A program made the position numbers and the translations under genes. From the IMG/VR virus record IMGVR_UViG_3300029998_000089, positions 1 through 31,186 of that record: a stretch of DNA of 31,186 bases; one strand, given 5' to 3'. This DNA is from a virus. Positions 1 through 10,852 of the stretch are shown in pieces. Position 1 is the stretch's first letter, and each line of letters begins with the position of its first letter. The notes beneath the pieces were generated by a model. It did no database searches and was not told where the DNA came from. It was given only the letters and a program-made list of their open reading frames with translations.

Positions 1-131
1 AACACACGCCTATGTTCATTGGCTGGCTGACGTGCATTCCGGCAGTTTTGCTCCCGCATTCACTTTGTCGTTTCACGACAGCGAATGCTCCCGCAAACCG
101 CCAAATGCCCATAGCCTCGGTCGTTATAGGC
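1..131 (-). repeat. attC-like imperfect palindrome 1 (cut by window edge)
   Basis: Read on the minus strand it opens with a TATAAC core (128-123), inside GCCTATAAC at 131-123. It closes at the window edge with GTT (3-1), as if cut within a second core. Between them CTATG (10-14) pairs with CATAG (110-114), CATTGGC (17-23) pairs with GCCAAATG (100-107) with one bulged base, GCATTC (56-61) pairs with GAATGC (83-88), and GTCGT (67-71) pairs with ACGAC (75-79). Core, bulged stem, core is the plan of integron attC sites. It lies 17 nt beyond the stop codon of the minus-strand gene 149-445, which is where an attC belongs in a cassette. A non-integron intergenic palindrome is the alternative. Confidence 0.5.
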
Positions 132-148
132 AAGCGAAAGAAAAAAGC

Positions 149-445
149 CTACCATTGCCACTCACCGTTAATGCGTACAACTCGACTTCTTTTAATTATA
201 ATCGGGTCATTTGGTCTATCTTCGTCTTTAAATTCTTCATTCCAATTGGTTCTACCAATCAGAAATGTTTCTGATATTTTAGGTCTTTTAGAAACTTCGT
301 GGACTTCACTTGTTTCAGTGTACCAGATTTCCTCGTCTGAAAATTGAATATCTTCTAAAATCAATTGTTTTTTTTCTTCTTCAAGATTTTTTATTTGCTC
401 AATTTTAGCTGAAATGTCAGCTCTTATTTCTTTTCTTGTTCTCAT
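149..445 (-). CDS. Small charged protein, possible integron-cassette gene
   Basis: 98 aa, not recognised. The ATG at 445-443 is the only sensible start. The N-terminal third (about residues 3-30) is rich in E, K, Q and L and looks like a short coiled coil. The rest is polar and acidic with several Trp residues and no signal peptide or membrane segment. The gene sits alone between two attC-like palindromes, 62 nt downstream of one and ending 17 nt before the other, all in one orientation. That is the size and geometry of a single-gene integron cassette. No promoter is obvious. Function unknown. Confidence 0.6.
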   Translation of the reverse strand: MRTRKEIRADISAKIEQIKNLEEEKKQLILEDIQFSDEEIWYTETSEVHEVSKRPKISETFLIGRTNWNEEFKDEDRPNDPIIIKRSRVVRINGEWQW

Positions 446-506
446 TTTTTTTGATTTTGATTTTTATATTTATGAATTTGAAAGTTTGACAGAAAGAGAA
501 TCGCCA

Positions 507-599
507 GCCTATAACAAACGCCTATGGTCGGCACTCCGACAACTTTTAGCGGTTTGACAGTGGTGTGCGTTTCGTGCCACCATAGCCTAATCGTTATAT
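507..599 (-). repeat. attC-like palindrome 2, overlapping the methyltransferase stop codon
   Basis: On the minus strand it runs from TATAAC (598-593) to GTTATAGGC (515-507). CTATGGT (522-528) pairs with ACCATAG (579-585), and GGCAC (530-534) pairs with GTGCC (574-578), leaving one unpaired base at 529. A stem broken by an extrahelical base is the diagnostic feature of folded attC sites. The TAA stop of the methyltransferase (596-594) lies inside the first core. The site shares its core sequences and stem position with the palindrome at 1-131 but differs in the loop, as attC sites in one array do. Confidence 0.55.
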
Positions 600-2393
600 C
601 GCCATTTTTAATTCTGTTACATTGATAGTTCCGGCAATTGCTTCGGCAAGTACACGTGCCTGGTTGCATTCTACGGCGTTGCCTATAAATTTCTTTTTGT
701 CGGCTTGTGTGCCGCACAGTTTGTATGTATCGCCAAATCCCTGAATGCGGAGTAATTCTTCTATCAGTAACATGCGCATGCGTACATCGATTATACCGTG
801 TGTATTGCACAGGGTTTTAAGTTGGATCATTATTTCGGTATCATCCGGATTAATGCATATTTCAACGTTACCACTGGTAGTTTCAATCAGGTAAGGCGGG
901 GCTTTGTCCATTCGGGCTATCAGCGTAAAGCATGGACGGTTAATGTTACCGCCCTTATTGGCAAACTGTGGATTCATTAAATAAAAATGTTTCCGGTTGG
1001 CTGTAATGGTTGGACATGGGTTTTTGAGCGAACAGCCTATGTTTTTAAACTGAGTATCCATAAGCCATTGTGCCGATACCAGGTTAAGTTTTGGATTAGC
1101 GGTAACAGTTCCGGCAGGCTGCAATATAGACGATGGTTTACTCATACCATATTGCTGATCCATAAATTTTGACGTTACTAATGCAAATCGATCTTTTGTT
1201 GTTACTGTTCCGCAAGGTTCGGTAATCGGAGTATTAAGACCTGGTGAATTGTACGTCATTATACTTTGAAATTTGGAAGTTACCAGCGCAAATCTATCTT
1301 TGGTTGTTACTGTTCTGCAAGGTTCTTCTATCGAACTGTTGTAGCCGTTACCGTAATAAGCTGTCAATAGTTGGTGATGATCTACTGTTGTAATAGTTTT
1401 AGCCGGACGATCGAGTGTGAAGTTTTTATCAGCTGGCCGTCCGCTGAAAGCCTGACTCATAAACTTGGCTTTAACCAAACCAATTCTATCCTGACAACTT
1501 ATAGTTGGACATGGTGCATCTACTGAAGGTGGAACGTATGTTTTGCGTTGGCTCATGCTGTTGTACTTTAGCATAAAATCATTGTCTCCATTTATTACAA
1601 AGCGTTCGATACCGGCAATTATACGCATAAGTGTTGCATCAACGAGCGGTTTCTGGCGGCTGAATATGCTTTCGCCTTCCACGTCCAGTTCCAGCACATC
1701 TTTAACCGATTTCCATTTTTCGAGAAATATATCACCTTTTTTTGAGTGCGTTTGTACCGGGAATGCTATGTTCAATTTATCTTTGGCAAATATGCCGAAG
1801 TAACGAACACGGCTGGTATATGCTCCGTAATCGGCTGCATTAAGTCTTCGGAAATCGTACAGATAACCCATGTTGATCAGATTATTGCGCCATTGATTAT
1901 AGTAAATTCCTTTTTGCTCTTTAGCAGGTTTTCCGTTTGCGTCAAGTGGTCCCCAGTCGATAAATTCTACCACGTTTTCAACACCAATAATGTCAGGGCA
2001 AAGTACATGCACATAGCGTTCGATATGTTCGGGCAAACTTCGGCTATCGGCATCGCGACTCATTCCACCTTTGGCTTTTGAATGGTGGGTACATTCGGCC
2101 GAAGCCCAGAACAATACTTTAGCATTTGGATATCGGAGTTTTGCATTTTCAATTATCTGTACTAATCGTTTTGGATCCAGCGTTGTAAAATCTTCGACAA
2201 AGTGAACCGTATCAGGATGATTGGCTGCATGGCTTTCTATAGCACGTGCATCGTGATTGATACCAATTACCACACGGCAAAGTTTATTGCCCTGTTTATC
2301 GGTAGCGCGGTGAAAACCTTCGGTTACACCACCAGCTCCGCAAAAGCTATCGATCACGATAATACGTACATTATAATCCGGAAGTATATTCAT
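594..2393 (-). CDS. DNA (cytosine-5) methyltransferase with a repeated recognition-type region
   Basis: 599 aa, DNA C5-cytosine methyltransferase family (S-adenosylmethionine-dependent transfer to C5 of cytosine). Visible motifs: motif I DSFCGAGG (about 15-22), motif IV with the catalytic Cys101 in AECTHHSKAKGG (EC instead of the usual PC), motif VI GVENV (137-141), motif VIII TSRVR (193-197), motif IX around RIQGF (549-553) and motif X around IGNAVE (570-575). Between VIII and IX, where the target recognition domain lies, the short motif PxxT(I/V/L) recurs seven times, at P294, P330, P358, P393, P426, P459 and P487. Two units share the identical stretch TVTTKDRFALVTSKF. No restriction endonuclease gene is nearby, so it looks like an orphan phage methylase, perhaps for protection from host restriction. 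It is the last gene of the early operon and its stop codon lies inside an attC-like site. Confidence 0.92.
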   Translation of the reverse strand: MNILPDYNVRIIVIDSFCGAGGVTEGFHRATDKQGNKLCRVVIGINHDARAIESHAANHPDTVHFVEDFTTLDPKRLVQIIENAKLRYPNAKVLFWASAECTHHSKAKGGMSRDADSRSLPEHIERYVHVLCPDIIGVENVVEFIDWGPLDANGKPAKEQKGIYYNQWRNNLINMGYLYDFRRLNAADYGAYTSRVRYFGIFAKDKLNIAFPVQTHSKKGDIFLEKWKSVKDVLELDVEGESIFSRQKPLVDATLMRIIAGIERFVINGDNDFMLKYNSMSQRKTYVPPSVDAPCPTISCQDRIGLVKAKFMSQAFSGRPADKNFTLDRPAKTITTVDHHQLLTAYYGNGYNSSIEEPCRTVTTKDRFALVTSKFQSIMTYNSPGLNTPITEPCGTVTTKDRFALVTSKFMDQQYGMSKPSSILQPAGTVTANPKLNLVSAQWLMDTQFKNIGCSLKNPCPTITANRKHFYLMNPQFANKGGNINRPCFTLIARMDKAPPYLIETTSGNVEICINPDDTEIMIQLKTLCNTHGIIDVRMRMLLIEELLRIQGFGDTYKLCGTQADKKKFIGNAVECNQARVLAEAIAGTINVTELKMAI

Positions 2394-2471
2394 TGTTTTA
2401 TTTATTTCTGAATCCTATTAAATTCATACACAAAAACCCATGGAAAATAAGATTGGTAGTTCTCTCATGGC

Positions 2472-2720
2472 TTAGTCAATTATTAATCGTAATGGTATAG
2501 CTTCAGCATAAGGAGTTGGAACTTTACATACTATAAGTTCAGCATCAAACTGTTCTGCTTTTTCTAGTTCCTCCGCAGGTATTGATATGCGGGTAATTAA
2601 ACATATTACTTTAATTCCTGTTTCTGATGTGCCTTCCCATATGCGGGCCTGAATTCCATCGCTTAATGGTCCGGCTTTTACAGTTACAATTTGTGTTGTT
2701 GATTCGATAGTTAGTTTCAT
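2472..2720 (-). CDS. Hypothetical small phage protein
   Basis: 82 aa, not recognised. No membrane segment or signal peptide; alternating hydrophobic and polar residues suggest a small beta-rich fold. Start at the ATG 2720-2718, preceded on the coding strand by TTTTAAAGCAAA, a leader that recurs before the next two upstream genes (starts at 3007 and 3260). It lies 78 nt upstream of the methyltransferase in the same early operon. Function unknown. Confidence 0.65.
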   Translation of the reverse strand: MKLTIESTTQIVTVKAGPLSDGIQARIWEGTSETGIKVICLITRISIPAEELEKAEQFDAELIVCKVPTPYAEAIPLRLIID

Positions 2721-2752
2721 TTTGCTTTAAAATTTTAAATATTATTTTTTAA

Positions 2753-3007
2753 TTATTCAAATACAGCACTGTTACATACCCTATAAAGTATTACAATCTT
2801 GTTGTTAAATATATTTACATTACATATCTCTACTCTTGTAGTTTCATAAATTGAATCAGATTTATCGCATATTACTCTGAAATATTTATTTATAAATTCA
2901 GGGGTAACTGCTAATTCTAAAATTGGATTTATCCAATTAGAACCAATATTAATATTTTGCTGAATTACTTCGTCGTAAGCTTTTTGTATTCTTTCAGGTA
3001 TTTCCAT
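2753..3007 (-). CDS. Hypothetical small phage protein
   Basis: 84 aa, not recognised. It begins MEIPERIQKAYDEVIQQN, a helical segment, and ends in a hydrophobic beta-like stretch (about 64-78). Two Cys residues in the C-terminal half (47 and 62 region) have no metal-binding spacing. The start ATG at 3007 carries the shared AATTTTAAAGCAAT leader. Co-directional with and tightly spaced between its neighbours (32 and 25 nt gaps), so part of the same early transcript. Function unknown. Confidence 0.62.
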   Translation of the reverse strand: MEIPERIQKAYDEVIQQNINIGSNWINPILELAVTPEFINKYFRVICDKSDSIYETTRVEICNVNIFNNKIVILYRVCNSAVFE

Positions 3008-3032
3008 ATTGCTTTAAAATTATTAGTTAGTA

Positions 3033-3260
3033 TTATTTTATAACCAATTCAAAGAATTTGGCTGATTTATCTATTCTATACAGTGGATCGCAAGGAATTT
3101 GCGGACAAATTTTTTCACCTTCAATAATTTTACCTCTGAATGCACATCTTAAGCAATCGACTTCGCTGTTTTCATGATCTGTTTCTGATAATTGAGCTGA
3201 TTTATATTCATTGTCATTTACAAAAACAGTGTTTTGATCTTTAGAAATAAATAGTTTCAT
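3033..3260 (-). CDS. Small cysteine-motif protein
   Basis: 75 aa, not recognised as a named family. The visible feature is a four-cysteine set, C36-x2-C39 in DCLRCAFRG, then C52 and C57, suggesting a small zinc-binding or disulfide-stabilised domain. The DCLxCAxR motif recurs in the 126-aa protein at 6969-7349, so the two probably share a domain. The start ATG at 3260 has the AAATTAAAGCAA leader typical of this gene group. The gene lies just downstream of a long-stem hairpin (3300-3382), so its transcription may depend on read-through or an unseen promoter. Function unknown. Confidence 0.62.
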   Translation of the reverse strand: MKLFISKDQNTVFVNDNEYKSAQLSETDHENSEVDCLRCAFRGKIIEGEKICPQIPCDPLYRIDKSAKFFELVIK

Positions 3261-3295
3261 TTGCTTTAATTTAAATTGTTAGTATTAGTATTTGA

Positions 3296-3382
3296 AAAAA
3301 AACAGCACGGCTGATTATTTTTACTATCTGATTTTAATAATTTTAAGGATTACCTCTATAACCCTATTGTGCCGTGCTGTTT
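3296..3382 (-). terminator. Long-loop hairpin followed by a T run (terminator or structured RNA)
   Basis: AAACAGCACGGC (3300-3311) and GCCGTGCTGTTT (3371-3382) are perfect 12-bp inverted repeats around a 59-nt AT-rich loop. On the minus strand the stem is followed directly by a T8 run, as in an intrinsic terminator, 8 nt beyond the stop of the 131-aa gene. The loop is far larger than in ordinary terminators, so a small structured RNA, or an attenuator within the early operon, is an alternative. A similar layout recurs at 26657-26734. Confidence 0.6.
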
Positions 3383-3389
3383 ATGTTAT

Positions 3390-3785
3390 TTATAATGGTT
3401 TTTCTTCAATATTTTCAGTTATTGTATCTTGAATAGTAGAGCAAATTACACTTCCATTACCGGTATAATTGTAGAATACTTCGTACAGCGTAGTTTCTTC
3501 TTCTGTTTCCGTAGCATCTATTATCACATCTTTAATATGCTCAGGATTTAGCGGATGTATCCAATAAATTTTTTCATCTTCAATTGGTTCCGGTTGCGCT
3601 TCAAGTATTTCCTTTACATGTTTACTATTCAAGGCTATTACATAGATCATATCGCCTCCAATCAGTTCAACTTCATAAATATAAAATCTATATTTACTGT
3701 TCATTTTACGTGTTAGTGCTCTTTTTTGAGCGCGCGTTCCTTTAAAATCTGATGTTTTGAACGCTGAATTGCTTGTTCTTTTCAT
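3390..3785 (-). CDS. Hypothetical phage protein
   Basis: 131 aa, not recognised. A basic N-terminus (residues 1-28, many K/R, including a GTRAQKRALTRKM stretch) could contact nucleic acid. The remainder is acidic with beta-type stretches around YRFYIYEVELI and IYWIHPL. No cysteine motif or membrane segment. Start ATG 3785; the stop of the upstream 60-aa gene is 1 nt away, so the two are translationally linked. It is the last gene before the hairpin at 3300-3382. Function unknown. Confidence 0.65.
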   Translation of the reverse strand: MKRTSNSAFKTSDFKGTRAQKRALTRKMNSKYRFYIYEVELIGGDMIYVIALNSKHVKEILEAQPEPIEDEKIYWIHPLNPEHIKDVIIDATETEEETTLYEVFYNYTGNGSVICSTIQDTITENIEEKPL

Positions 3786-3786
3786 A

Positions 3787-3969
3787 TTATTGCAGCATTT
3801 TTATTATAGTTGGTATTTCAGTTTCTTCCCATTGGTACGATACACTGCCGTGTCTTCCATGGGGTGGTAATTTTTTACCGATATTTATTGCTATTTCATT
3901 CAGATCGGCGGTGAAAATCCTGCGGTGTAATTTTGTTGTCAGAATTTTGTTTAATTCAGTAGTAGTCAT
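3787..3969 (-). CDS. Hypothetical 60-aa phage protein
   Basis: 60 aa, not recognised. It resembles a compact helical domain (TTTELNKILTTKLHRRIF, then TADLNEIAINIGKKL), suggestive of a small DNA-binding or regulatory protein, but no clear helix-turn-helix can be assigned. It sits 1 nt after the helicase gene and 1 nt before the 131-aa gene, which supports real translation as part of the replication cluster. Confidence 0.6.
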   Translation of the reverse strand: MTTTELNKILTTKLHRRIFTADLNEIAINIGKKLPPHGRHGSVSYQWEETEIPTIIKMLQ

Positions 3970-3970
3970 A

Positions 3971-5224
3971 TTATATAAATTTTAAGTGATATCCTTTTCG
4001 TGGTTCATTATTATCTGTTTTCGAACGGTATGTTACAGCCTGATAACCCAGTGCATTGAGTGCGAGCCCTATTTTTTGAGGCGTTATTTTATTCATATCT
4101 TCACTTTTAATGCGTCTGTCTTTAATTAATCGTTGTAAAATTTGAGTAGGATTAAGTTTTTCGCCTTCATTATCGTTTTCCGGAATTTCGGTGTAACTCT
4201 GAATATAGCGCATTGCATCTGTTTCAAATTTGTATCGTGCATTGTAGGCATTGAATTCTTCGTAATCAGCCTTATCAAAATGGTAATTGAATGAACTTGA
4301 TTCACAAAGTGTAAGTGCTTCGCTCCACATCTGATCCACATCTACAATGGTGGAATATTCCTGTTGAATATCAGCTATTTCAATGCATCCGAAACGGCGT
4401 GTATCCGGACCGTACCAACTCTGGATAAAGCCTCCGTTTTCTTCATTAAAATTAGTATTGAACATCGAACAGGCTAAGCGGTTTTTTTTGGAAGGAAATT
4501 CCTCATGACGCATTTTGGTGGTGATGTGTGTACAAGTTTGTGCCATTTTGAATGTATTAATACTACCTTTCGAAAGTCCGTTAAGTTCCTCAAAGTTTAC
4601 TATCATATACCTGGTATATGCATCTTCAATGTCAAACTTATGTTCATCTTTCGATGCCTGAACATAAAATTCGCTTAGTTCGTCCGGAAGAATGAATTGT
4701 GTAAAATATGTTTTACCGCTTCCACCTCTTACATCGACAAATCCTAATGCTACATCGTTTGCAATTCCTTTAGTCCAACAGGCAACGCAGGCAACTAACC
4801 ATTTGCGAATAAGTCTATCAGTACGTTCGCGATAATAAGTATCAGAATTGCCATCGAATACGCGCGGAATTATATGTGAACTTAATATGTCAATATGGCT
4901 AACACCTTTCCACTGGCCGCGGATACGATTAAAATAATTAATTACCGGATTAACAGGTGCAATCTGATTTGGTGACCGGATAATTTTGCGGAGCATATTG
5001 TCTCCTACAATAATACTTTCGCTCATAAGATGTAGCGATATATCGTTGAATGTGGGAGGAAATGTGTAACGATGTTTATCCTTACAACTTATTTGAATTT
5101 TAGCAGGATCCTGAATAGGAATTCTGATATCATAGTGTTCCATCAAAAAACTAACAACTTGCTGTACTTTATCGTCGAACAGTGAGCGTTCGTTACTGAT
5201 AGCGGGCTTTTCAATTTGGGGCAT
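3971..5224 (-). CDS. VirE-type primase/helicase ATPase (phage replication)
   Basis: 417 aa. Walker A is GGSGKT at 167-172, preceded by VALGFVDVR. A Walker B-like strand YMIVNFEEL lies at 206-214, and downstream segments with TKMRHE and NRLACSMFNTNF resemble the VirE (PF05272) / superfamily 3 helicase ATPase core of phage and plasmid replication proteins. RRF at 276-278 could supply the arginine finger. Residues 1-145 are poorly conserved and may be a partner-binding region; no primase motif is seen there. The C-terminal 80 residues look like a small helical DNA-binding domain. The gene overlaps the upstream 227-aa gene by 14 nt, implying coupled translation. Likely role: unwinding the element's DNA at replication. 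Family-level call is good, exact role inferred. Confidence 0.78.
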   Translation of the reverse strand: MPQIEKPAISNERSLFDDKVQQVVSFLMEHYDIRIPIQDPAKIQISCKDKHRYTFPPTFNDISLHLMSESIIVGDNMLRKIIRSPNQIAPVNPVINYFNRIRGQWKGVSHIDILSSHIIPRVFDGNSDTYYRERTDRLIRKWLVACVACWTKGIANDVALGFVDVRGGSGKTYFTQFILPDELSEFYVQASKDEHKFDIEDAYTRYMIVNFEELNGLSKGSINTFKMAQTCTHITTKMRHEEFPSKKNRLACSMFNTNFNEENGGFIQSWYGPDTRRFGCIEIADIQQEYSTIVDVDQMWSEALTLCESSSFNYHFDKADYEEFNAYNARYKFETDAMRYIQSYTEIPENDNEGEKLNPTQILQRLIKDRRIKSEDMNKITPQKIGLALNALGYQAVTYRSKTDNNEPRKGYHLKFI

Positions 5225-5894
5225 GTTCTTCTAAGTATTTGTTAAGAAATTCTTCACGGGCATTTTTAAGTGCCACCGGCATCATTTTATTTTCAAAGTC
5301 TTTACGCTTTTCCCAATAATCCTGGCCTTCAAGATCATTGAAATCTTTTTTCATAATTTTCAATATTTCTAAACTCACACTATTCCTTGTTTTATCCAAA
5401 TGATCTTCGAGATCTAAATTGTATTTATCACGCTGTTTGCGTGTTAAAATGCTACGTTCCAGGTTATATTGCATAAAACCATACAGTATTCGTTGTGCGT
5501 CAACTGATCCGTAAAACGGGCCATATTCAGCACGCATAATTTTCTCAAAAATTATTTTCAAATCGGTTAAATACATGAATTTATAGTCTTTATATATCAT
5601 ATATGCAACCGCATTTAGTTCTGTGAGTTGTTTATTTATATTGCTGAATTTGTTAAGAAAATCGAGCCAACGAGCAATATAATTAACTGAATTATTTATT
5701 TCAGTTTCAGGATATATTATATTAATATCCTCTATCGTCATGCGGGGTTTCGCAATTGATTCTTCAATTGTATTAATATTATCGTAAGCAACTAATAATC
5801 GTGCCGGTGATAAATCATTATAGAATAATTTATAGTTCGGATATAATTTTAGTGTTCGTTTTTGAATTGCCGTTAAATTTTCAAACTGAATCAT
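5211..5894 (-). CDS. Putative replication accessory protein (DUF6633-like)
   Basis: 227 aa, largely helical, no membrane segment. The central stretch FMYLTDLKIIFEKIMRAEYG followed by FYGSVDAQRILYGFMQYN resembles a signature I associate with Bacteroidota phage proteins of the DUF6633 type, which sit beside replication genes. That family assignment is from memory. The last third is charged and coiled (about 150-220). Translation overlaps the helicase gene by 14 nt, so the two are probably made in step and may interact; helicase loading is a reasonable guess but nothing in the sequence proves it. Confidence 0.6.
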   Translation of the reverse strand: MIQFENLTAIQKRTLKLYPNYKLFYNDLSPARLLVAYDNINTIEESIAKPRMTIEDINIIYPETEINNSVNYIARWLDFLNKFSNINKQLTELNAVAYMIYKDYKFMYLTDLKIIFEKIMRAEYGPFYGSVDAQRILYGFMQYNLERSILTRKQRDKYNLDLEDHLDKTRNSVSLEILKIMKKDFNDLEGQDYWEKRKDFENKMMPVALKNAREEFLNKYLEEHAPN

Positions 5895-5914
5895 TACTGT
5901 TTTTATTTGAGTTA

Positions 5915-6175
5915 TTATATTCCTTTTAATTTTTTAATCTCAGCATTTAACCTGTTAATTTCTTCTTGCTGTTGTCTGAGTCTCATCCATACACTTATTT
6001 CACGCCGGGTTTCTTGTTCAATAAATTGCTGTTTATCCGGAATCTGGTTATCAGTTGCAAATCTTCCTTCCGAATCTTTAGCTCTTTCGCTTATTTTCGG
6101 TTTTCGGGTTTTTTGCTTCGTAACTATTTCGGCAAAAAATGGAAATTCAAGTTGATTTAGCAATACTGAATTCAT
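5915..6175 (-). CDS. Small coiled-coil phage protein
   Basis: 86 aa, not recognised. A short hydrophobic start (NQLEFPFFAEI) is followed by a basic region (TKQKTRKPK) and a C-terminal coiled coil (about 58-84, with LRQQQEEINRLNAEIKKL in heptads). It looks like a small dimerising, possibly DNA-associated protein. It lies between the DnaD-like gene (4-nt gap) and the replication partner gene (20-nt gap) in the same operon. Function unknown. Confidence 0.62.
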   Translation of the reverse strand: MNSVLLNQLEFPFFAEIVTKQKTRKPKISERAKDSEGRFATDNQIPDKQQFIEQETRREISVWMRLRQQQEEINRLNAEIKKLKGI

Positions 6176-6179
6176 GATT

Positions 6180-6665
6180 TTAAACCTGATTGGTTGGTTT
6201 TGTTATATTAAAATCACTATGCTCTTCTGTTTTGGATGGTTCCTCACCGGTAAGTTGTTTATCAGTAGGCTTAAACATAGATTTGTAACCGTTAGCAATA
6301 AATAATTCAAGCATTTCAATTGCACGCTGTTGATTATTACCACTATATTTGCGAAGTCTCGAAAGGATAATATTCTGGCGACGCGATCCGATTTGGATAT
6401 TATAATCTTCGAGTAGATATTCTTTATAAGTTTTCCACATTTCGGCAAAATCGTTACCTTCAAATGGTAGTTTTATATCAATAGCTGCTATCGGTTCAAC
6501 TAATTTATCGAATTCATTTTGCTGATTAATAATCTTTACCCATTGCTCACATAGTTTTTTTAAAGCTTTTTTTGTGCGTACATCGCTTACACCTTCGGCA
6601 AATTCTTCTACCATTTTATTGAATGATGTGAGTGAATTAGATAGTAATATCCATTGTGGTCTCAT
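6180..6665 (-). CDS. DnaD/replisome-organizer-like protein
   Basis: 161 aa. The C-terminal half (about 70-135) has W-x2-Y-x2-YLLEDYNIQI, a helical stretch, then RAIEMLELFIANGYKSMF. This pattern is reminiscent of DnaD-like domains of phage replication initiators, whose last helix reads roughly A-x2-SI-x-NGWxGL. The same domain occurs alone in the 73-aa protein at 8709-8930 (WKIYNEYLLEDYGI near its start). The N-terminal half is helical and may be for self-association. The gene overlaps the upstream gene by 4 nt. Beside the VirE-like helicase, a role in origin recognition or helicase loading is plausible but inferred. Confidence 0.6.
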   Translation of the reverse strand: MRPQWILLSNSLTSFNKMVEEFAEGVSDVRTKKALKKLCEQWVKIINQQNEFDKLVEPIAAIDIKLPFEGNDFAEMWKTYKEYLLEDYNIQIGSRRQNIILSRLRKYSGNNQQRAIEMLELFIANGYKSMFKPTDKQLTGEEPSKTEEHSDFNITKPTNQV

Positions 6666-6967
6666 GTTGGCGTGTTTAATTTGTTAGTTACTTTGTTAAA
6701 TAGTTCGTATATTTCAAGTTTTTCAGGCGAAAGAAAAAGCTCATTTTTCTTTACTTCGAGATATTTACGAAAAGCAATTTCGAGTTTTTCAGGTTCCCCG
6801 GTATGTGGATTTATTACTGATAAAATAGGAATTCGTTCTACAGTGGATTCGCCACCATGCGGATGTTCAAAATTTATCAAGTAATCTACCATTTTAACTT
6901 CCAGTCCGGCATTACGAAATAATTTTATAGCGTCGGCCGATGAAAATATAATTTTAGCAGTAATCAT
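6662..6967 (-). CDS. Hypothetical phage protein
   Basis: 101 aa, not recognised. The N-terminal half has alternating strands and a short loop FEHPHGGEST; the C-terminal half (about 65-98) is helical and charged. No metal-binding or membrane motif. Start ATG 6967, 1 nt from the stop of the cysteine-motif gene upstream; its own end overlaps the DnaD-like gene by 4 nt, so it is translationally locked into the early operon. Function unknown. Confidence 0.64.
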   Translation of the reverse strand: MITAKIIFSSADAIKLFRNAGLEVKMVDYLINFEHPHGGESTVERIPILSVINPHTGEPEKLEIAFRKYLEVKKNELFLSPEKLEIYELFNKVTNKLNTPT

Positions 6968-6968
6968 A

Positions 6969-7349
6969 TTATTTGTATCGTTTGAAGTTTCCGGGAATCT
7001 GATCTTTGCGCGTTTCGAATGAACAAGGGAATACGATTGTCATATTATTGCATCCGTGACATGGAATGCGAAGTGCACAATCAAGACAATCGCCATTTCG
7101 GATAAATTGATAAATTTCGTTACGTGTATCGATGCGTCGTTCATCTTCAGATATGGTATAAAACTGTATGTCGAATTCCGGAACTCTTTCCTGAGCCGCG
7201 AAGCAACTACCGGCAGCATCCCATCGGCATCGAATATCATTCATTATTCCGGTAACACTTACTACCTTATTATTTTCCTTGCGTATATTTTCAATATATA
7301 CGTTCATCACATTGAGTGAAGTTTCAAAATCTTTGATTGAGTATTCCAT
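6969..7349 (-). CDS. Cysteine-cluster protein, possible zinc ribbon
   Basis: 126 aa, not recognised as a named family. The C-terminal third carries C88-x2-C91-x5-C97-x2-C100 and a further C109, in the context DCLDCALRIPCHGC; two more Cys lie at 41 and 49. Two CxxC pairs five residues apart fit a small zinc-binding knuckle. The DCLxCAxR element also occurs in the 75-aa protein at 3033-3260. It lies 81 nt downstream of the LuxR-type regulator gene. A DNA-binding or regulatory role is possible but not shown. Confidence 0.62.
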   Translation of the reverse strand: MEYSIKDFETSLNVMNVYIENIRKENNKVVSVTGIMNDIRCRWDAAGSCFAAQERVPEFDIQFYTISEDERRIDTRNEIYQFIRNGDCLDCALRIPCHGCNNMTIVFPCSFETRKDQIPGNFKRYK

Positions 7350-7430
7350 AAGTCAGTTATTAATTTTCGATTAATTGATTTAAGAGGTGGAGAGATGTTT
7401 TTTTAAAATGTTGTATGTTTTTGATAAATG

Positions 7431-7994
7431 TTACTCAACGCTTTGAGCTACATGTTTTAAATAATATTCTGTTATTGATGCATTGTTATGTTTACTAATT
7501 TTACGAAGTATATTATTGGTGTGTTTTTCAACCGTGAAGCGACTAATACAAAGTAGTACTGCAATATCGGAGACTGTTCGTCCTTCGGATATTAATTTCA
7601 TTACGCGTTCCTCTCCAACCGATATTTTTGTTTCTTCTTTCGGAAAACAGGTTTCGCGCCACTCTTTACATTCACCGGCCAGTGGACATTGCGTAAATTC
7701 AAAATGAAAATTGCCTTCAGCGTCGATATCCAACCGATTATCATAAGTCCCGAAATTACATTTCAAAAATCCGCGAACTATAAGGAATTCAAAATGCCAT
7801 CTGTTTTGATCATACTGTTGATATCGCTTTTTCAGGTTTTCCACAGCTACAGGGTAACGATCGGTAATTACTTCGAGAAACGATGTAATAAAATCACGAT
7901 TAGATTCCAGCAATTCAAAAGATTCCTGATTTTTGATCCGGATCTCCACTTCGCCATGTGGCATGGAGAAATTTTCAATATTTCTTATGTCCAT
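7431..7994 (-). CDS. LuxR-type HTH regulator with a cysteine motif
   Basis: 187 aa. The C-terminal part (about 125-180) is a LuxR/GerE helix-turn-helix: EERVMKLISEGRTVSDIAVL, then SRFTVEKHTNNILRKI, with the usual K-H-x-x-N-I-x-x-K spacing. Before it lies a cysteine motif, C103, C109, C116 in CPLAGECKEWRETC, which in my recollection is typical of LuxR-like proteins in Bacteroidota prophages and conjugative elements; it could bind metal or an Fe-S cluster. There is no receiver or autoinducer domain. As the second gene of the early operon, overlapping the Cro-position gene by 10 nt, it is well placed to switch on later genes, including the unusual late promoters at 16642, 21818 and 26292. That link is inference. 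Confidence 0.82.
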   Translation of the reverse strand: MDIRNIENFSMPHGEVEIRIKNQESFELLESNRDFITSFLEVITDRYPVAVENLKKRYQQYDQNRWHFEFLIVRGFLKCNFGTYDNRLDIDAEGNFHFEFTQCPLAGECKEWRETCFPKEETKISVGEERVMKLISEGRTVSDIAVLLCISRFTVEKHTNNILRKISKHNNASITEYYLKHVAQSVE

Positions 7995-8209
7995 TGCAGT
8001 TTTCCGGTTTTAAAATCATCAATGATTGATTCAACTGCTTCAAGTTCTAACTTAGTAAAATTCTTTTCACGGAATTTATAACTGAATGTTGGTATCGACC
8101 ATCCTGTTTTATCAATTACAGTCTGTTTGAACAGACTTTTTTGTTTTGTTTCCAAAAGTCTGTAATAACTGATAACAGTAGTTTTTTTCTTAATTTCTTG
8201 TTTTGTCAT
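7985..8209 (-). CDS. Small early protein in the Cro position
   Basis: 74 aa, basic. Residues about 25-60 (LFKQTVIDKTGWSIPTFSYKFREKNFTKLELEAV) read like a compact helix-turn-helix with a Ser/Thr-rich recognition helix. It is the first gene of the minus-strand early operon, directly across the operator region from the divergent XRE repressor gene, where Cro-like or antirepressor proteins usually lie. It overlaps the LuxR-type gene by 10 nt. The function is inferred from position and a weak fold impression only. Confidence 0.6.
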   Translation of the reverse strand: MTKQEIKKKTTVISYYRLLETKQKSLFKQTVIDKTGWSIPTFSYKFREKNFTKLELEAVESIIDDFKTGKLQWT

Positions 8210-8241
8210 TATTATATTTATATTTAATATTAATTTGATAC

Positions 8242-8318
8242 CGCAAATATATAACTAATTTGAGATAATCTCAAATATAAAATGAGTTTTTTTCAATATT
8301 TTTTTATATAATCTCATT
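8242..8318 (-). promoter_or_regulatory. Early minus-strand promoter with repressor operator
   Basis: On the minus strand TATATTTG (8250-8243) fits the Bacteroidota -7 box TAnnTTTG, with TTTG about 20 nt upstream as the -33 box. The interval between the boxes is a perfect odd palindrome, ATTTGAGAT-A-ATCTCAAAT (8258-8276), overlapping the -33 box, so a bound repressor would block transcription. Further half-sites, AATGAG (8281-8286) and ATCTCATT (8311-8318), lie towards the repressor gene and may serve autoregulation. Confidence 0.7.
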
Positions 8319-8352
8319 ACATATTGATAATCAATTAATTATATTTACAAAT

Positions 8353-8703
8353 ATGAATTTAATTAGAAATATAGAAATTATTAGAAAGCAAAAGGGTTAT
8401 AGTCAAGAATATATAGCTCAAAATATGCATGTAGATAATGCTGTAATTAGCAATATTGAAAAGGGTAAGCGAAAATTGAAGTGGGATGAAATTGAGATTT
8501 TCTCAAATATATTCGAAATGAGTATCCTTGATTTAATAACATATCCAGAAGTTTATGTAAAAAAAGATGCTCAAATGAATATATTAACAGAACCATTGGA
8601 AGAATATGGTTTAAATGATAAGGAAAAATTAATAAAGACACTTTATGATAGAATTAATTATCAGGAAAAAATAATAAATGCATTATTAAAAATTGAATTA
8701 TAA
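8353..8703 (+). CDS. XRE-family phage repressor (CI-like)
   Basis: 116 aa. Residues 4-60 form an XRE/Cro-type helix-turn-helix: IRNIEIIRKQKGYSQEYIAQ, then VDNAVISNIEKGKRKLKWDE, with the usual N-I-E-K-G after the recognition helix. The C-terminal tail (about 85-116) is helical, probably for dimerisation. There is no S24 peptidase domain, so it is unlikely to be inactivated by RecA-stimulated self-cleavage. It is divergent from the early operon across an operator with TTTGAGAT half-sites, as expected for the lysogeny repressor. A TATATTTA box directly before the start (8340-8347) suggests a very short or absent leader. Confidence 0.85.
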   Translation: MNLIRNIEIIRKQKGYSQEYIAQNMHVDNAVISNIEKGKRKLKWDEIEIFSNIFEMSILDLITYPEVYVKKDAQMNILTEPLEEYGLNDKEKLIKTLYDRINYQEKIINALLKIEL

Positions 8704-8708
8704 ATACT

Positions 8709-8930
8709 ATGTTAAACAATTCAGAATTTTTAGAAACCTGGAAAATATATAATGAATATCTTTTGGAGGATTACGGAATAATACTAAATGACACACAAAA
8801 ACAAGAACGGCTTGCTGATATAGAAAAATTGGCGAATGGAGATGAAAAATTTGCTAATGATATACTTGAAATTATGATTGCACGTGGAGAAACAACTATT
8901 TTAATGCCTGATGATAATGAATTTGCCTAA
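8709..8930 (+). CDS. Small paralogue of the DnaD-like domain
   Basis: 73 aa. Nearly the whole protein aligns by eye with residues about 73-135 of the DnaD-like protein at 6180-6665: FLETWKIYNEYLLEDYGI matches FAEMWKTYKEYLLEDYNI, and the later helix EIMIARGETTILMP matches ELFIANGYKSMFKP. It lies 5 nt after the repressor gene in the lysogeny operon, whereas its longer relative is in the lytic operon. A free copy of an oligomerisation domain could act as a competitor of replication during lysogeny; this is inference. A decayed duplicate is the alternative. Confidence 0.68.
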   Translation: MLNNSEFLETWKIYNEYLLEDYGIILNDTQKQERLADIEKLANGDEKFANDILEIMIARGETTILMPDDNEFA

Positions 8931-9045
8931 AATTTTTTTTATGATATCTGCGGCAAAACTGCGGCAGTAGTTTGTACTAATTATTAAATTAATAGTTTAA
9001 TATAATCTGATATACAATTGTTTAACTATTTTAAAAAAACAAAAA

Positions 9046-9080
9046 GGGAAGGATAACAGTCCCTCCCTCTCCGCTTTTTT
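9046..9080 (+). terminator. Possible intrinsic terminator after the repressor operon
   Basis: GGGAAGGA (9046-9053) pairs with TCCCTCCC (9060-9067), with one mismatch, around the loop TAACAG; a T6 run follows at 9075-9080. The gap between stem and T run is longer than usual, so the hairpin at 9087 may be the main terminator. Confidence 0.35.
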
Positions 9081-9086
9081 AATTTT

Positions 9087-9121
9087 AAAACGTTGTATGT
9101 CAAAAACATACAACGTTTTTT
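9087..9121 (+). terminator. Strong intrinsic terminator
   Basis: AAAACGTTGTATGT (9087-9100) and ACATACAACGTTTT (9106-9119) form a perfect 14-bp stem with a CAAAA loop, followed by more T. It separates the repressor operon from the integrase gene, so the integrase is probably transcribed separately. Confidence 0.8.
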
Positions 9122-9225
9122 ATTTTATTACTGCGGCAGTAATGCAGCACTTCAATGTTTGTTTACAGTTTTAAAATAAAAAACGCTGTAATTTAATAAG
9201 TTAAACTAATTTAAAACTTATTTTT

Positions 9226-10374
9226 ATGGCAATTATTAATGACAATTTCAAAATGGATTATATACCGGCGCGAATTTGCGATGGTAAAGAATTATGCATA
9301 AAATATTACGCATGGGACCAAAAAGAAGGTAAAAGAAAACGAAAAGTTATGCGCTTTAATCACTTAATTGGAAAATTCCCAAAACGTGAAATATATCGTA
9401 TGATGAATAAAGCCGTATTTGATATAAACGTAAAACTTGAATCAGGAAAGAACCCATATATCGAATCTGAGTTACCAAAAGCATATTCAAAATTATCTGA
9501 TGCTGTTAATATATTTAGTGAAATTAAAGAACAGGATATGCGGGAGGATGGATTTAGAAGTTATAAATCATTCATTAAAAAATTGAATGATTGGCTTATT
9601 CTTCATAACTTAACAAATTGTTATGTAATAGATTTTAACAAAGATATGGCTGTTGATTTCTTAATTGAGATTGAACGAAATAAAAGTATAGGTAATCGGA
9701 CTTATAATAATTATGTAGAATTTTACAGGGGACTCTGGAATTGGTTAATTGAAAAAAATTACTGTAAAAATAACATATTTACAAATTTCAAAAAAAAGGA
9801 AGAAGAAGAAAAAATAAGGCAAATTATTGATCCGAAATCACATTTAAAAATTATAGATTACTGCCGGAATAATATGCCAAATATGGAAATTGTTATCGAT
9901 TTAGTTAGATCTTCGTTTATCCGTCCTGCAGAGATATGCCGTATAAAAATTTCTAATATTGATTTATTTAATAAAGTTATAAGTATTCCACAGGGAAATT
10001 CAAAAACAAAAAAATTCAGATTTGCATATCTACCTGATTGGTTAGTATATAAAATTATTAATAATATGTCACTTGAAAATTATCCTTTAGATTTTTACCT
10101 TTTAACAAGAAATTTAAAACCAGGTACAAAAAAAATAGGTACCAGGGAATTGGATAAATACTGGGCGAAAATAAGAACTGATTTAAATTTAGGAATGGAA
10201 TTGCAGTTATATTCGTACAGAGATACTGGGATAACAGCACTTGAAGATGCGGGTATTCAACGGCGTGTAATTATTAAGCTTACCGGTCACCAGAGTGAAG
10301 AAATGGCTGGAAAATATATTCGCCAGCCATCACGTGAACTTATTGATAATATTGTAACAAAAATAAAAGAATAA
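9226..10374 (+). CDS. Tyrosine recombinase / integrase
   Basis: 382 aa. Residues about 90-180 form a SAM-like core-binding domain and about 200-370 the catalytic domain. Visible catalytic residues: Arg233 in FIRPAE, a Lys in the beta hairpin (SKTKKFRF, about 259-266), Arg332 in LYSYRDTG, His355 in LTGHQS and the nucleophile Tyr364 in AGKYI. The His expected three residues before Arg332 is Tyr329, a substitution that I recall from Bacteroidota phage integrases. An N-terminal arm-binding region (about 1-80, basic) is present. It would integrate and excise the element. It lies in the middle of the phage genes, not at an edge. Its stop is 4 nt from the convergent holin stop. Confidence 0.9.
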   Translation: MAIINDNFKMDYIPARICDGKELCIKYYAWDQKEGKRKRKVMRFNHLIGKFPKREIYRMMNKAVFDINVKLESGKNPYIESELPKAYSKLSDAVNIFSEIKEQDMREDGFRSYKSFIKKLNDWLILHNLTNCYVIDFNKDMAVDFLIEIERNKSIGNRTYNNYVEFYRGLWNWLIEKNYCKNNIFTNFKKKEEEEKIRQIIDPKSHLKIIDYCRNNMPNMEIVIDLVRSSFIRPAEICRIKISNIDLFNKVISIPQGNSKTKKFRFAYLPDWLVYKIINNMSLENYPLDFYLLTRNLKPGTKKIGTRELDKYWAKIRTDLNLGMELQLYSYRDTGITALEDAGIQRRVIIKLTGHQSEEMAGKYIRQPSRELIDNIVTKIKE

Positions 10375-10384
10375 AATCTTATTC
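10369..10384. terminator. Weak shared hairpin between convergent integrase and holin genes
   Basis: GAATAA (10369-10374) and TTATTC (10379-10384) form a 6-bp AT stem with an AATC loop that covers both stop codons; A and T runs flank it. Weak, but the only candidate for ending these two convergent units. Confidence 0.3.
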
Positions 10385-10852
10385 AATTTTGTTTTCCTCC
10401 TTATCTTCCAAACTCGATAAATCGACGTCGAAATGACGGGCTGTTTTATCGATCATTATTTTCTGAAATAACTTTGCCCAGCTGGAGCCGTTACAACTGC
10501 TTTCGTTTTCTAGGATACTCCACAACTCTTTAAAACAATATATACCCGCTGCCCAGTTGGCAAAAAACAGGTTATCGAACATTACGAAGATCATAGTTCC
10601 GGCAAAGTGAGCCAGTAATACGATCACAAATAGTTCGATAATTGAGGTTATAACCTTTGCGAATTTTGCACTTTGGAATTTACCTGATGCTTTTCCTGAT
10701 GTTTTTTTGACTCGTTGGCTTAGCCGATAAGCCGTAAAACTATCGACGAGAATAAAAAGTATTCCGACAAAAAGTACCGGAAATGTAGGCTTAACAGTAG
10801 CTAATAAACCACCGAAAAGCGCGATGAGCCATTTAAGTAAGGTAGAGTTCAT
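10379..10852 (-). CDS. Phage holin
   Basis: 157 aa. Hydrophobic segments at about 5-20, 24-40, 66-91 and 94-110 alternate with basic loops (QRVKKTSGKASGKF), followed by a charged C-terminal tail ending EDKEENKIE. The pattern of size, several membrane spans and charged tail fits the phage holin family (PF05105-like). It would permeabilise the inner membrane to release the endolysin or trigger lysis. It is the last gene of the third late unit, after the tail-fibre genes, and about 10 kb from the endolysin gene. Its start overlaps the 82-aa gene by 4 nt. Confidence 0.75.
   Translation of the reverse strand: MNSTLLKWLIALFGGLLATVKPTFPVLFVGILFILVDSFTAYRLSQRVKKTSGKASGKFQSAKFAKVITSIIELFVIVLLAHFAGTMIFVMFDNLFFANWAAGIYCFKELWSILENESSCNGSSWAKLFQKIMIDKTARHFDVDLSSLEDKEENKIE

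Follow-up and report, generated by a model that had tools for sequence, protein, structure and literature searches.

The locus and its two palindromic sites

The window, by which we mean the whole stretch of DNA that was analysed (a linear IMG/VR record of 31,186 bases), was found to contain two imperfect palindromes near its left end, at positions 1-131 and 507-601. Each is built from an AAC core followed by a 4-nt spacer and the box GCCTATG, then a middle that varies, and after it the box CATAGCC, a second spacer and the GTT core. These palindromes are very likely attC-type sites that bound an integron cassette, with recombination at them inferred and not assayed, and they are so named in the following list of features, where R1 and R2 are covariance models described below.

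1-131, plus strand: attC site 1, its left core truncated where the contig ends; matched by R2; continues to the left in overlapping record L003 (parts: AAC 1-3; L box GCCTATG 8-14; L' box CATAGCC 110-116; GTTATAGGC 123-131)
124-593, plus strand: gene cassette A, between two G^TT points, with its own attC (site 2) at the 3' end
149-445, minus strand: 98-aa ORF, function unknown, running against the attC of cassette A
507-601, plus strand: attC site 2, the last attC of the array; R1 E 0.0037, R2 E 0.003 (parts: GCCTATAAC 507-515; GCCTATG 520-526; CATAGCC 581-587; GTTATATCG 593-601)
594-2393, minus strand: C5-cytosine DNA methyltransferase; PF00145 E 5.9e-22; phrog_116 DNA methyltransferase E 7.7e-65
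9226-10374, plus strand: phage tyrosine integrase; PF00589 E 1.8e-13; TIGR02249 24 bits versus a cut-off of 265

An attC site is defined as an imperfect palindrome of 57-141 bp with RYYYAAC-like and GTTRRRY-like cores (PMC3053210), and this definition is satisfied by the sites in the window. Cores of the site family include GTTAGGC, GTTAGCG and GTTATGG; the GTTATAG and GTTATAT of the window are off at one or two R/Y positions. The left box, read on the plus strand, has an extra unpaired base, consistent with the rule (PMC3053210), applied here by eye, that when the bottom strand folds its two extrahelical bases are found on the same side. The anatomy of the sites is thus shown. When single-strand folding was compared to that of shuffled sequences, support was modest for site 1, matched by 4 of 200 shuffles, and below significance for site 2, matched by 31 of 200. 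Therefore, the case for attC stands on the covariance model, covariation and the cassette-boundary rule, not on folding energy. An Rfam search found nothing, and a generic scan for AAC/GTT palindromes was dropped, as it did not beat Markov shuffles.

A short cassette array inside phage DNA

The first base of the window already falls within the left core of site 1. When viral contigs were scanned for a pattern of one half of the site, a single record was returned, IMGVR_UViG_3300030339_000226 (24,614 bases; L003), which was identical to window positions 1-10,393, the part compared, and extended 11,871 bases further left. This record reads CGCTAAC at the left core of site 1; thus, the TATAAC core that a sequence-only reading of the window had assigned to both palindromes failed for site 1. 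A third attC, a second copy of site 1 (94-96% identical), was located 744 bases further left in L003, and a plus-strand ORF of 145 aa sits between it and site 1, giving a second complete cassette. A probable third phage cassette includes a 138-aa ORF and displays an exact 9-base match between its ends; a degenerate half-site remnant, identified by eye (L003 6310-6331), is apparently at its outer end. Only the 145-aa ORF points its 3' end to its attC, the 98-aa and 138-aa ORFs being reversed. The start of cassette A, GTTATAGGC, is the reverse complement of its own end, GCCTATAAC, with 6 of 6 bases matching beyond GTT.

No family was detected for the 98-aa protein in NCBIfam, Pfam or PHROGs, and none of 300 genomes of the host family encoded a relative. 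For the 145-aa protein one relative was found among the 300 family genomes, with 45% identity over its length. The gene of this relative (L119 7756-8585, genome G216) was observed between two direct attC-like repeats of about 95 nt in the same orientation; these represent a different attC-like family to which R1 gives no match.

The three phage attC sites lie within 1.4 kb. A CALIN requires two or more attC sites separated by less than 4 kb and no integron integrase nearby; the array qualifies, the sole integrase present being of phage type. This window integrase was considered as an integron integrase and rejected, since it scores like a general phage/Xer-type integrase. Left of the array, L003 carries minus-strand genes that include a head maturation protease (phrog_53, E 1.9e-42), together with long ORFs tentatively labelled capsid and large terminase, with no family match in support. 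Right of the array are the C5-methyltransferase, a helicase/primase-like gene, a Cro/C1-type regulator, the phage integrase, a tape-measure gene and a portal-like protein. With phage genes on both sides the array is inside phage DNA, a context that is shown here; with three attC sites and no integron integrase it is a CALIN inside a phage genome. Its location is between the phage head genes and the methyltransferase/replication region of a phage that has its own integrase gene.

The right core of site 2 is the junction with phage DNA. As the sequence-only reading had stated, the methyltransferase stop codon (594-596) is inside this core, with its TTA directly right of the crossover point. The methyltransferase was ruled out as a cassette gene, no GTTATATCG-type start being present upstream on its strand, and is concluded to be a phage gene that flanks the array. 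Its relatives in L005 and L006 (54-66% and 44-46% identity) were not accompanied by sites of the family. A 72-nt direct repeat (79%) was noted within the methyltransferase gene at window positions 1164-1340, perhaps a repeated target-recognition segment.

The half-site pattern AACGACCGAGGCTATGGGCA was detected in 8 viral records, several of which are short and possibly host DNA. Among these, a 54-kb record with several phage-family proteins (IMGVR_UViG_3300021602_000009, L113) has a lone cassette at 264-2492 with one attC and two plus-strand ORFs (111 and 165 aa); its start, GTTAGGTGT, matches its own end, and an N6/N4 DNA methyltransferase gene adjoins it. In a separate observation, record IMGVR_UViG_3300033419_000075 (L112), which may be host or prophage DNA, encodes a Cas13b (650-4066, minus strand; NF038190, 752.6 bits) about 2.3 kb from an attC of the family (6327-6457).

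An assembly chimera, in which a host CALIN was fused to phage contigs via repeats, or a host flank would also place such sites in viral records. This is favored by the window ending inside a repeat and by the terminase and capsid labels on the left side lacking a family match. By contrast, a second record crosses the array with no difference over 10.4 kb and has the head maturation protease on the far side, and the separate L113 viral record has a single cassette of the same site family. We regard a chimera as very unlikely.

Chromosomal sites of the same family

Model R1 was built from six sites, two from the phage and four from Paludibacter MAGs (exact pattern in GTDB genomes). Matches to R1 (E<=0.01) were found in 34 of 150 genomes of the Paludibacteraceae family, often in arrays (G004, G037, G096, G027, G131, G115 and others) that run on one strand with a spacing of mostly 0.6-1.2 kb. 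One genome assembled as a single contig of 3,685,504 bases (G004) has at least 11 sites over 12 kb. Some sites were solitary, between cellular genes in Paludibacter MAGs (L009, L010).

Covariation was examined with 64 distinct chromosomal sites, in an alignment that was fitted to the model and thus favors the structure. Of the base-pair cells, 88.3% were standard pairs compared to at most 53.1% when partners were slid, and 87 cells were changed on both sides compared to 21 in shuffled alignments, a value reached by none of 500 shuffles. Covariation is thus shown, and the attC criterion of structure conserved over sequence is satisfied for this site set within the limits of a model-fitted alignment; the site middles are partly conserved in sequence. 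Model R2, trained on chromosomal sites only, matched site 1 at 151.6 bits (E 1.4e-49) and the third phage site at E 7.3e-52, and matched site 2 weakly (19.3 bits, E 0.003). The independence of R2 is partial, since its training set was gathered with R1, itself seeded by two phage sites.

Cassette boundaries and ORF orientation

Since integron cassettes are joined at G^TT, complementarity is expected between the two ends of the same cassette, and not between the start of a cassette and the half-site that adjoins it. This was examined in 30 cassettes lying between adjacent sites, by comparing the six bases that follow GTT with the reverse complement of the six that precede the cassette's own AAC. 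The match averaged 4.7 of 6 for the own end, 3.18 for ends taken from other cassettes and 2.96 for the adjoining half-site in place (26 values); the own-end value was reached by none of 20,000 permutations. A full 6/6 match was found in 15 of the 30, including both complete phage cassettes. The cassette boundaries are thus shown. The main ORF was on the strand opposite R1 (the window plus strand) in 28 of the 29 cassettes with an ORF of at least 50 aa, the count omitting one cassette without an ORF of 50 aa on either strand; the lone exception was the window's own 98-aa ORF. A minus-strand reading of the sites was rejected, as 28 of the 29 ORF-bearing cassettes point the opposite way.

Much of the sequence-only reading can be judged by these results. 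The two palindromes that it placed at positions 1-600 are both present, supported by R2, covariation and the boundary rule, and its proposal of an integron-like array without an integrase (CALIN) in phage DNA also held, with no integron integrase found in the window. It had suggested an attC covariance model, as in IntegronFinder, and a search to the left for intI and further cassettes; the family-specific R1 and R2 were built in place of the IntegronFinder model and matched both window sites, site 2 weakly, and the leftward search revealed the third attC, the second complete cassette and the probable third cassette, with no intI in the phage DNA seen. Its picture of an edge needs correction, the array being interior to the phage genome according to the overlapping record. 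Its remark that each site lies just after the stop of a minus-strand gene does not follow cassette logic, as the sites face the plus strand; this orientation puts site 2 last in the array and makes the methyltransferase beside it flanking phage DNA, not cassette content.

Patch-less recombinases at the heads of chromosomal arrays

Several chromosomal arrays begin directly 3' of an IntI-like tyrosine recombinase. The TIGR02249 cut-off was exceeded in none of the 150 family genomes, and the best sub-threshold stretches (about 110-135 bits) were mostly in tyrosine recombinases of 548-586 aa. These are without the IntI-specific insertion of about 43 residues and have extra N-terminal modules. The closest PDB sequence is VchIntIA (2a3v; E 8.6e-39), with 20 residues between aligned blocks in the recombinase compared to 63 in VchIntIA, and the KxxDR-to-HxLRH distance was 56-63 residues in 32 recombinases with a full core. 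In the VchIntIA structure the extrahelical bases are held by K209, Y210, W219, P232, H240 and H241 (PMC3053210), all of which are inside the segment missing from the recombinase (within VchIntIA 182-246). If these enzymes do act on folded attC sites, hairpin recognition must use other parts of the protein, perhaps the N-terminal modules. The chromosomal recombinase fails the IntI criterion of an insertion around patch III and satisfies that of an adjacent attI and cassette array. Smyshlyaev et al. 2021 (PMC8138268) describe the insertion as incompletely conserved in their integron-like subgroup, yet as essential to the working of integrons.

Adjacency of recombinase and array is shown by several counts. 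An R1 site was located downstream in 5 of 8 long-type loci with sufficient 3' DNA compared to 0 of 7 loci of shorter recombinases (p 0.019), and at four more long-type loci the contig broke off no more than 272 nt past the recombinase 3' end. The shorter enzymes (280-360 aa) were rejected as the cognate recombinase, none of their seven loci having sites. Sites were present in 11 of 12 genomes with the long recombinase compared to 23 of 138 others (Fisher p=2e-7), a value obtained on a selected set, as the 12 were chosen from the top TIGR02249 matches. The most site-rich genomes (G004 with 18, G145 with 16, G149 with 14) had only Xer-level scores in the TIGR02249 search. An attI-like site and recombinase were found at array heads, and in G037, G096 and G113 a stretch of 9-10 bases at the start of the first cassette matches the attC of that cassette. 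G027 has two copies of the recombinase 3' end that are identical through ..ATACGCATG|TTAT and differ beyond it, the pattern that an attI filled on two occasions should leave.

Recombinase genes were also noted at MAG contig ends (G002:C9, G003:C5, G131:C1, G063:C6 and others), and two contigs start with (C)TAAC. Assemblies seemingly break at recombinase/array junctions, so arrays are probably under-represented in MAGs. A different pairing was observed in L055 and L056, where recombinases of 283-285 aa are directly followed by an ORF that by eye resembles IS91-type transposases.

Ordinary dispersed palindromic repeats (terminators, REP/MITE-like) that resemble attC had been named by the sequence-only reading as its refutation. 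This explanation is supported by the isolated copies in L009 and L010 and by the partial sequence conservation of the site middles. Against it are the many one-strand arrays with their mostly 0.6-1.2 kb spacing, the cassette-specific complementarity of starts and ends that no permutation reached, the near-uniform ORF orientation, and the recombinase and attI-like site at array heads. Dispersed repeats are thus considered very unlikely.

Other Bacteroidia examined without a site model

The N-terminal module was detected in 89 of 345 Bacteroidia genomes. Among 20 recombinase loci, which included fragments without a complete catalytic core (G615, G430, G327a, G327b), a contig end was within 1.7 kb on the 3' side in 12 and on the 5' side in 4, an excess that is expected if hard-to-assemble repeats come after the recombinase gene. 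Chains of cassettes were identified by exact GTT+6 start/end matches 45-170 nt apart, with no site model. By this approach, chains were found 3' of recombinases outside the first family in G321 (7 cassettes), G552 (5, in a flank that includes a masked stretch) and G451 (4), with attC lengths mostly of 122-124 nt, and in Paludibacteraceae-family loci of G027 (5), G037 (4) and G096 (3). Chains of only 1-2 were found in G113, G115, G073, G090, G141, G327 (two loci), G396, G421 and G424. In G004, which has the most R1 sites, the lesser exactness of the cassette ends kept the chain to 2. The background was 0-2 in 29 pieces; an uncut 48.7-kb stretch of Polaribacter phage P12002S gave a chain of 3, one G115-flank shuffle reached 4, and G046 and G421 flank shuffles reached 3. 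Thus, chains of 3 are weak evidence, and a chain of 4 at one locus is possible by chance. The first chain element in the present phage (L003 6041-6252) was discarded as low-complexity and probably due to chance.

Interpretation

The reading that we consider very likely is that a phage of a Paludibacteraceae-like host carries a short CALIN of integron gene cassettes; that these came from host-family integrons is inferred, as is recombination itself, without assay. In the proposed mechanism, a host integron recombinase would act in trans on the folded minus (bottom) strand of attC, and circular cassettes would be joined to phage DNA at the G^TT beside the methyltransferase stop codon, after which the phage may carry cassettes between hosts. 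The putative enzyme is the IntI-like tyrosine recombinase that heads chromosomal arrays with the same sites; its binding and cutting of the sites are inferred, as is the suggestion that its N-terminal modules may substitute for the IntI insertion in hairpin binding. The only ties between the phage sites and this patch-less recombinase are that the sites belong to one family and that the hosts do. No phage was found in two versions, one with the cassettes and one lacking them. Weighing against the main reading, site 2 alone is a weak model match, the 98-aa and 138-aa ORFs are unusually oriented against their attC, and the most site-rich genomes have only the Xer-level scores given above.

Alternatively, the array may be genuine but dead, the immobile relic of a single capture in which illegitimate recombination was perhaps involved. 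The reversal of two of the three cassette ORFs, the divergence of site 2 and the apparent half-site remnant at L003 6310-6331 are in its favor. By contrast, three sites retain their boxes, spacers and exact cassette boundaries, and two sites are 94% identical, suggesting recent exchange or duplication; a dead array thus seems unlikely.

Beyond the phage CALIN, a bolder reading, which we find likely when taken as a whole, is that Bacteroidia have an integron class of their own, from which phages take up cassettes. Its recombinase would be patch-less and IntI/XerA-like, with N-terminal modules in repeated form; its attI, containing inverted repeats, would lie about 0-250 nt beyond the 3' end of the recombinase gene; and its cassette arrays would be long. 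The class would have been overlooked since detection requires the IntI-specific insertion. If this is true, integron cassettes are moved by phages in a major phylum whose members are mostly anaerobes, and recombinases without a segment held to be essential for integrons come within the integron concept. Recognition of folded single-stranded DNA without the IntI insertion would also become directly testable, and it is suggested that some Bacteroidota CALINs are integrons with an overlooked integrase.

Comparison with known systems

Phage CALINs are already known; the part that would be new is the patch-less recombinase as a candidate integron integrase. No report of such an enzyme in Bacteroidia was found in the open-access literature searched, subscription papers and preprints being outside the search. 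For Bacteroidetes, IntegronFinder 2.0 listed one complete integron, in Salinibacter ruber, and only In0 elements had been listed earlier.

Qi et al. 2023 (PMC9892861) identified 17 CALINs from 10,705 phage genomes, and IntI1 used 5 of 6 tested attC sites from virulent phages. The present array resembles these in its integrase-less attC cluster and in the DNA methyltransferases in or near it, and one Polaribacter (Bacteroidota) phage is among them. It differs in that sites of its family also form arrays in host-family chromosomes, where a candidate cognate recombinase is encoded, and in that its methyltransferase lies outside the cassettes.

Sedentary chromosomal integrons with IntI share with the chromosomal loci a recombinase, an attI-like site, tandem cassettes, folded attC sites and G^TT junctions. 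By contrast to IntI, the recombinase described here is without the insertion and has N-terminal modules, and its attI is 3' of the gene; an attI immediately downstream of intI has also been described for Archaea (PMC9668308). XerA, XerC and XerD are similar in having a catalytic core without the insertion; unlike the long recombinases, the 280-360-aa recombinases of the same genomes are not trailed by attC arrays (0 of 7).
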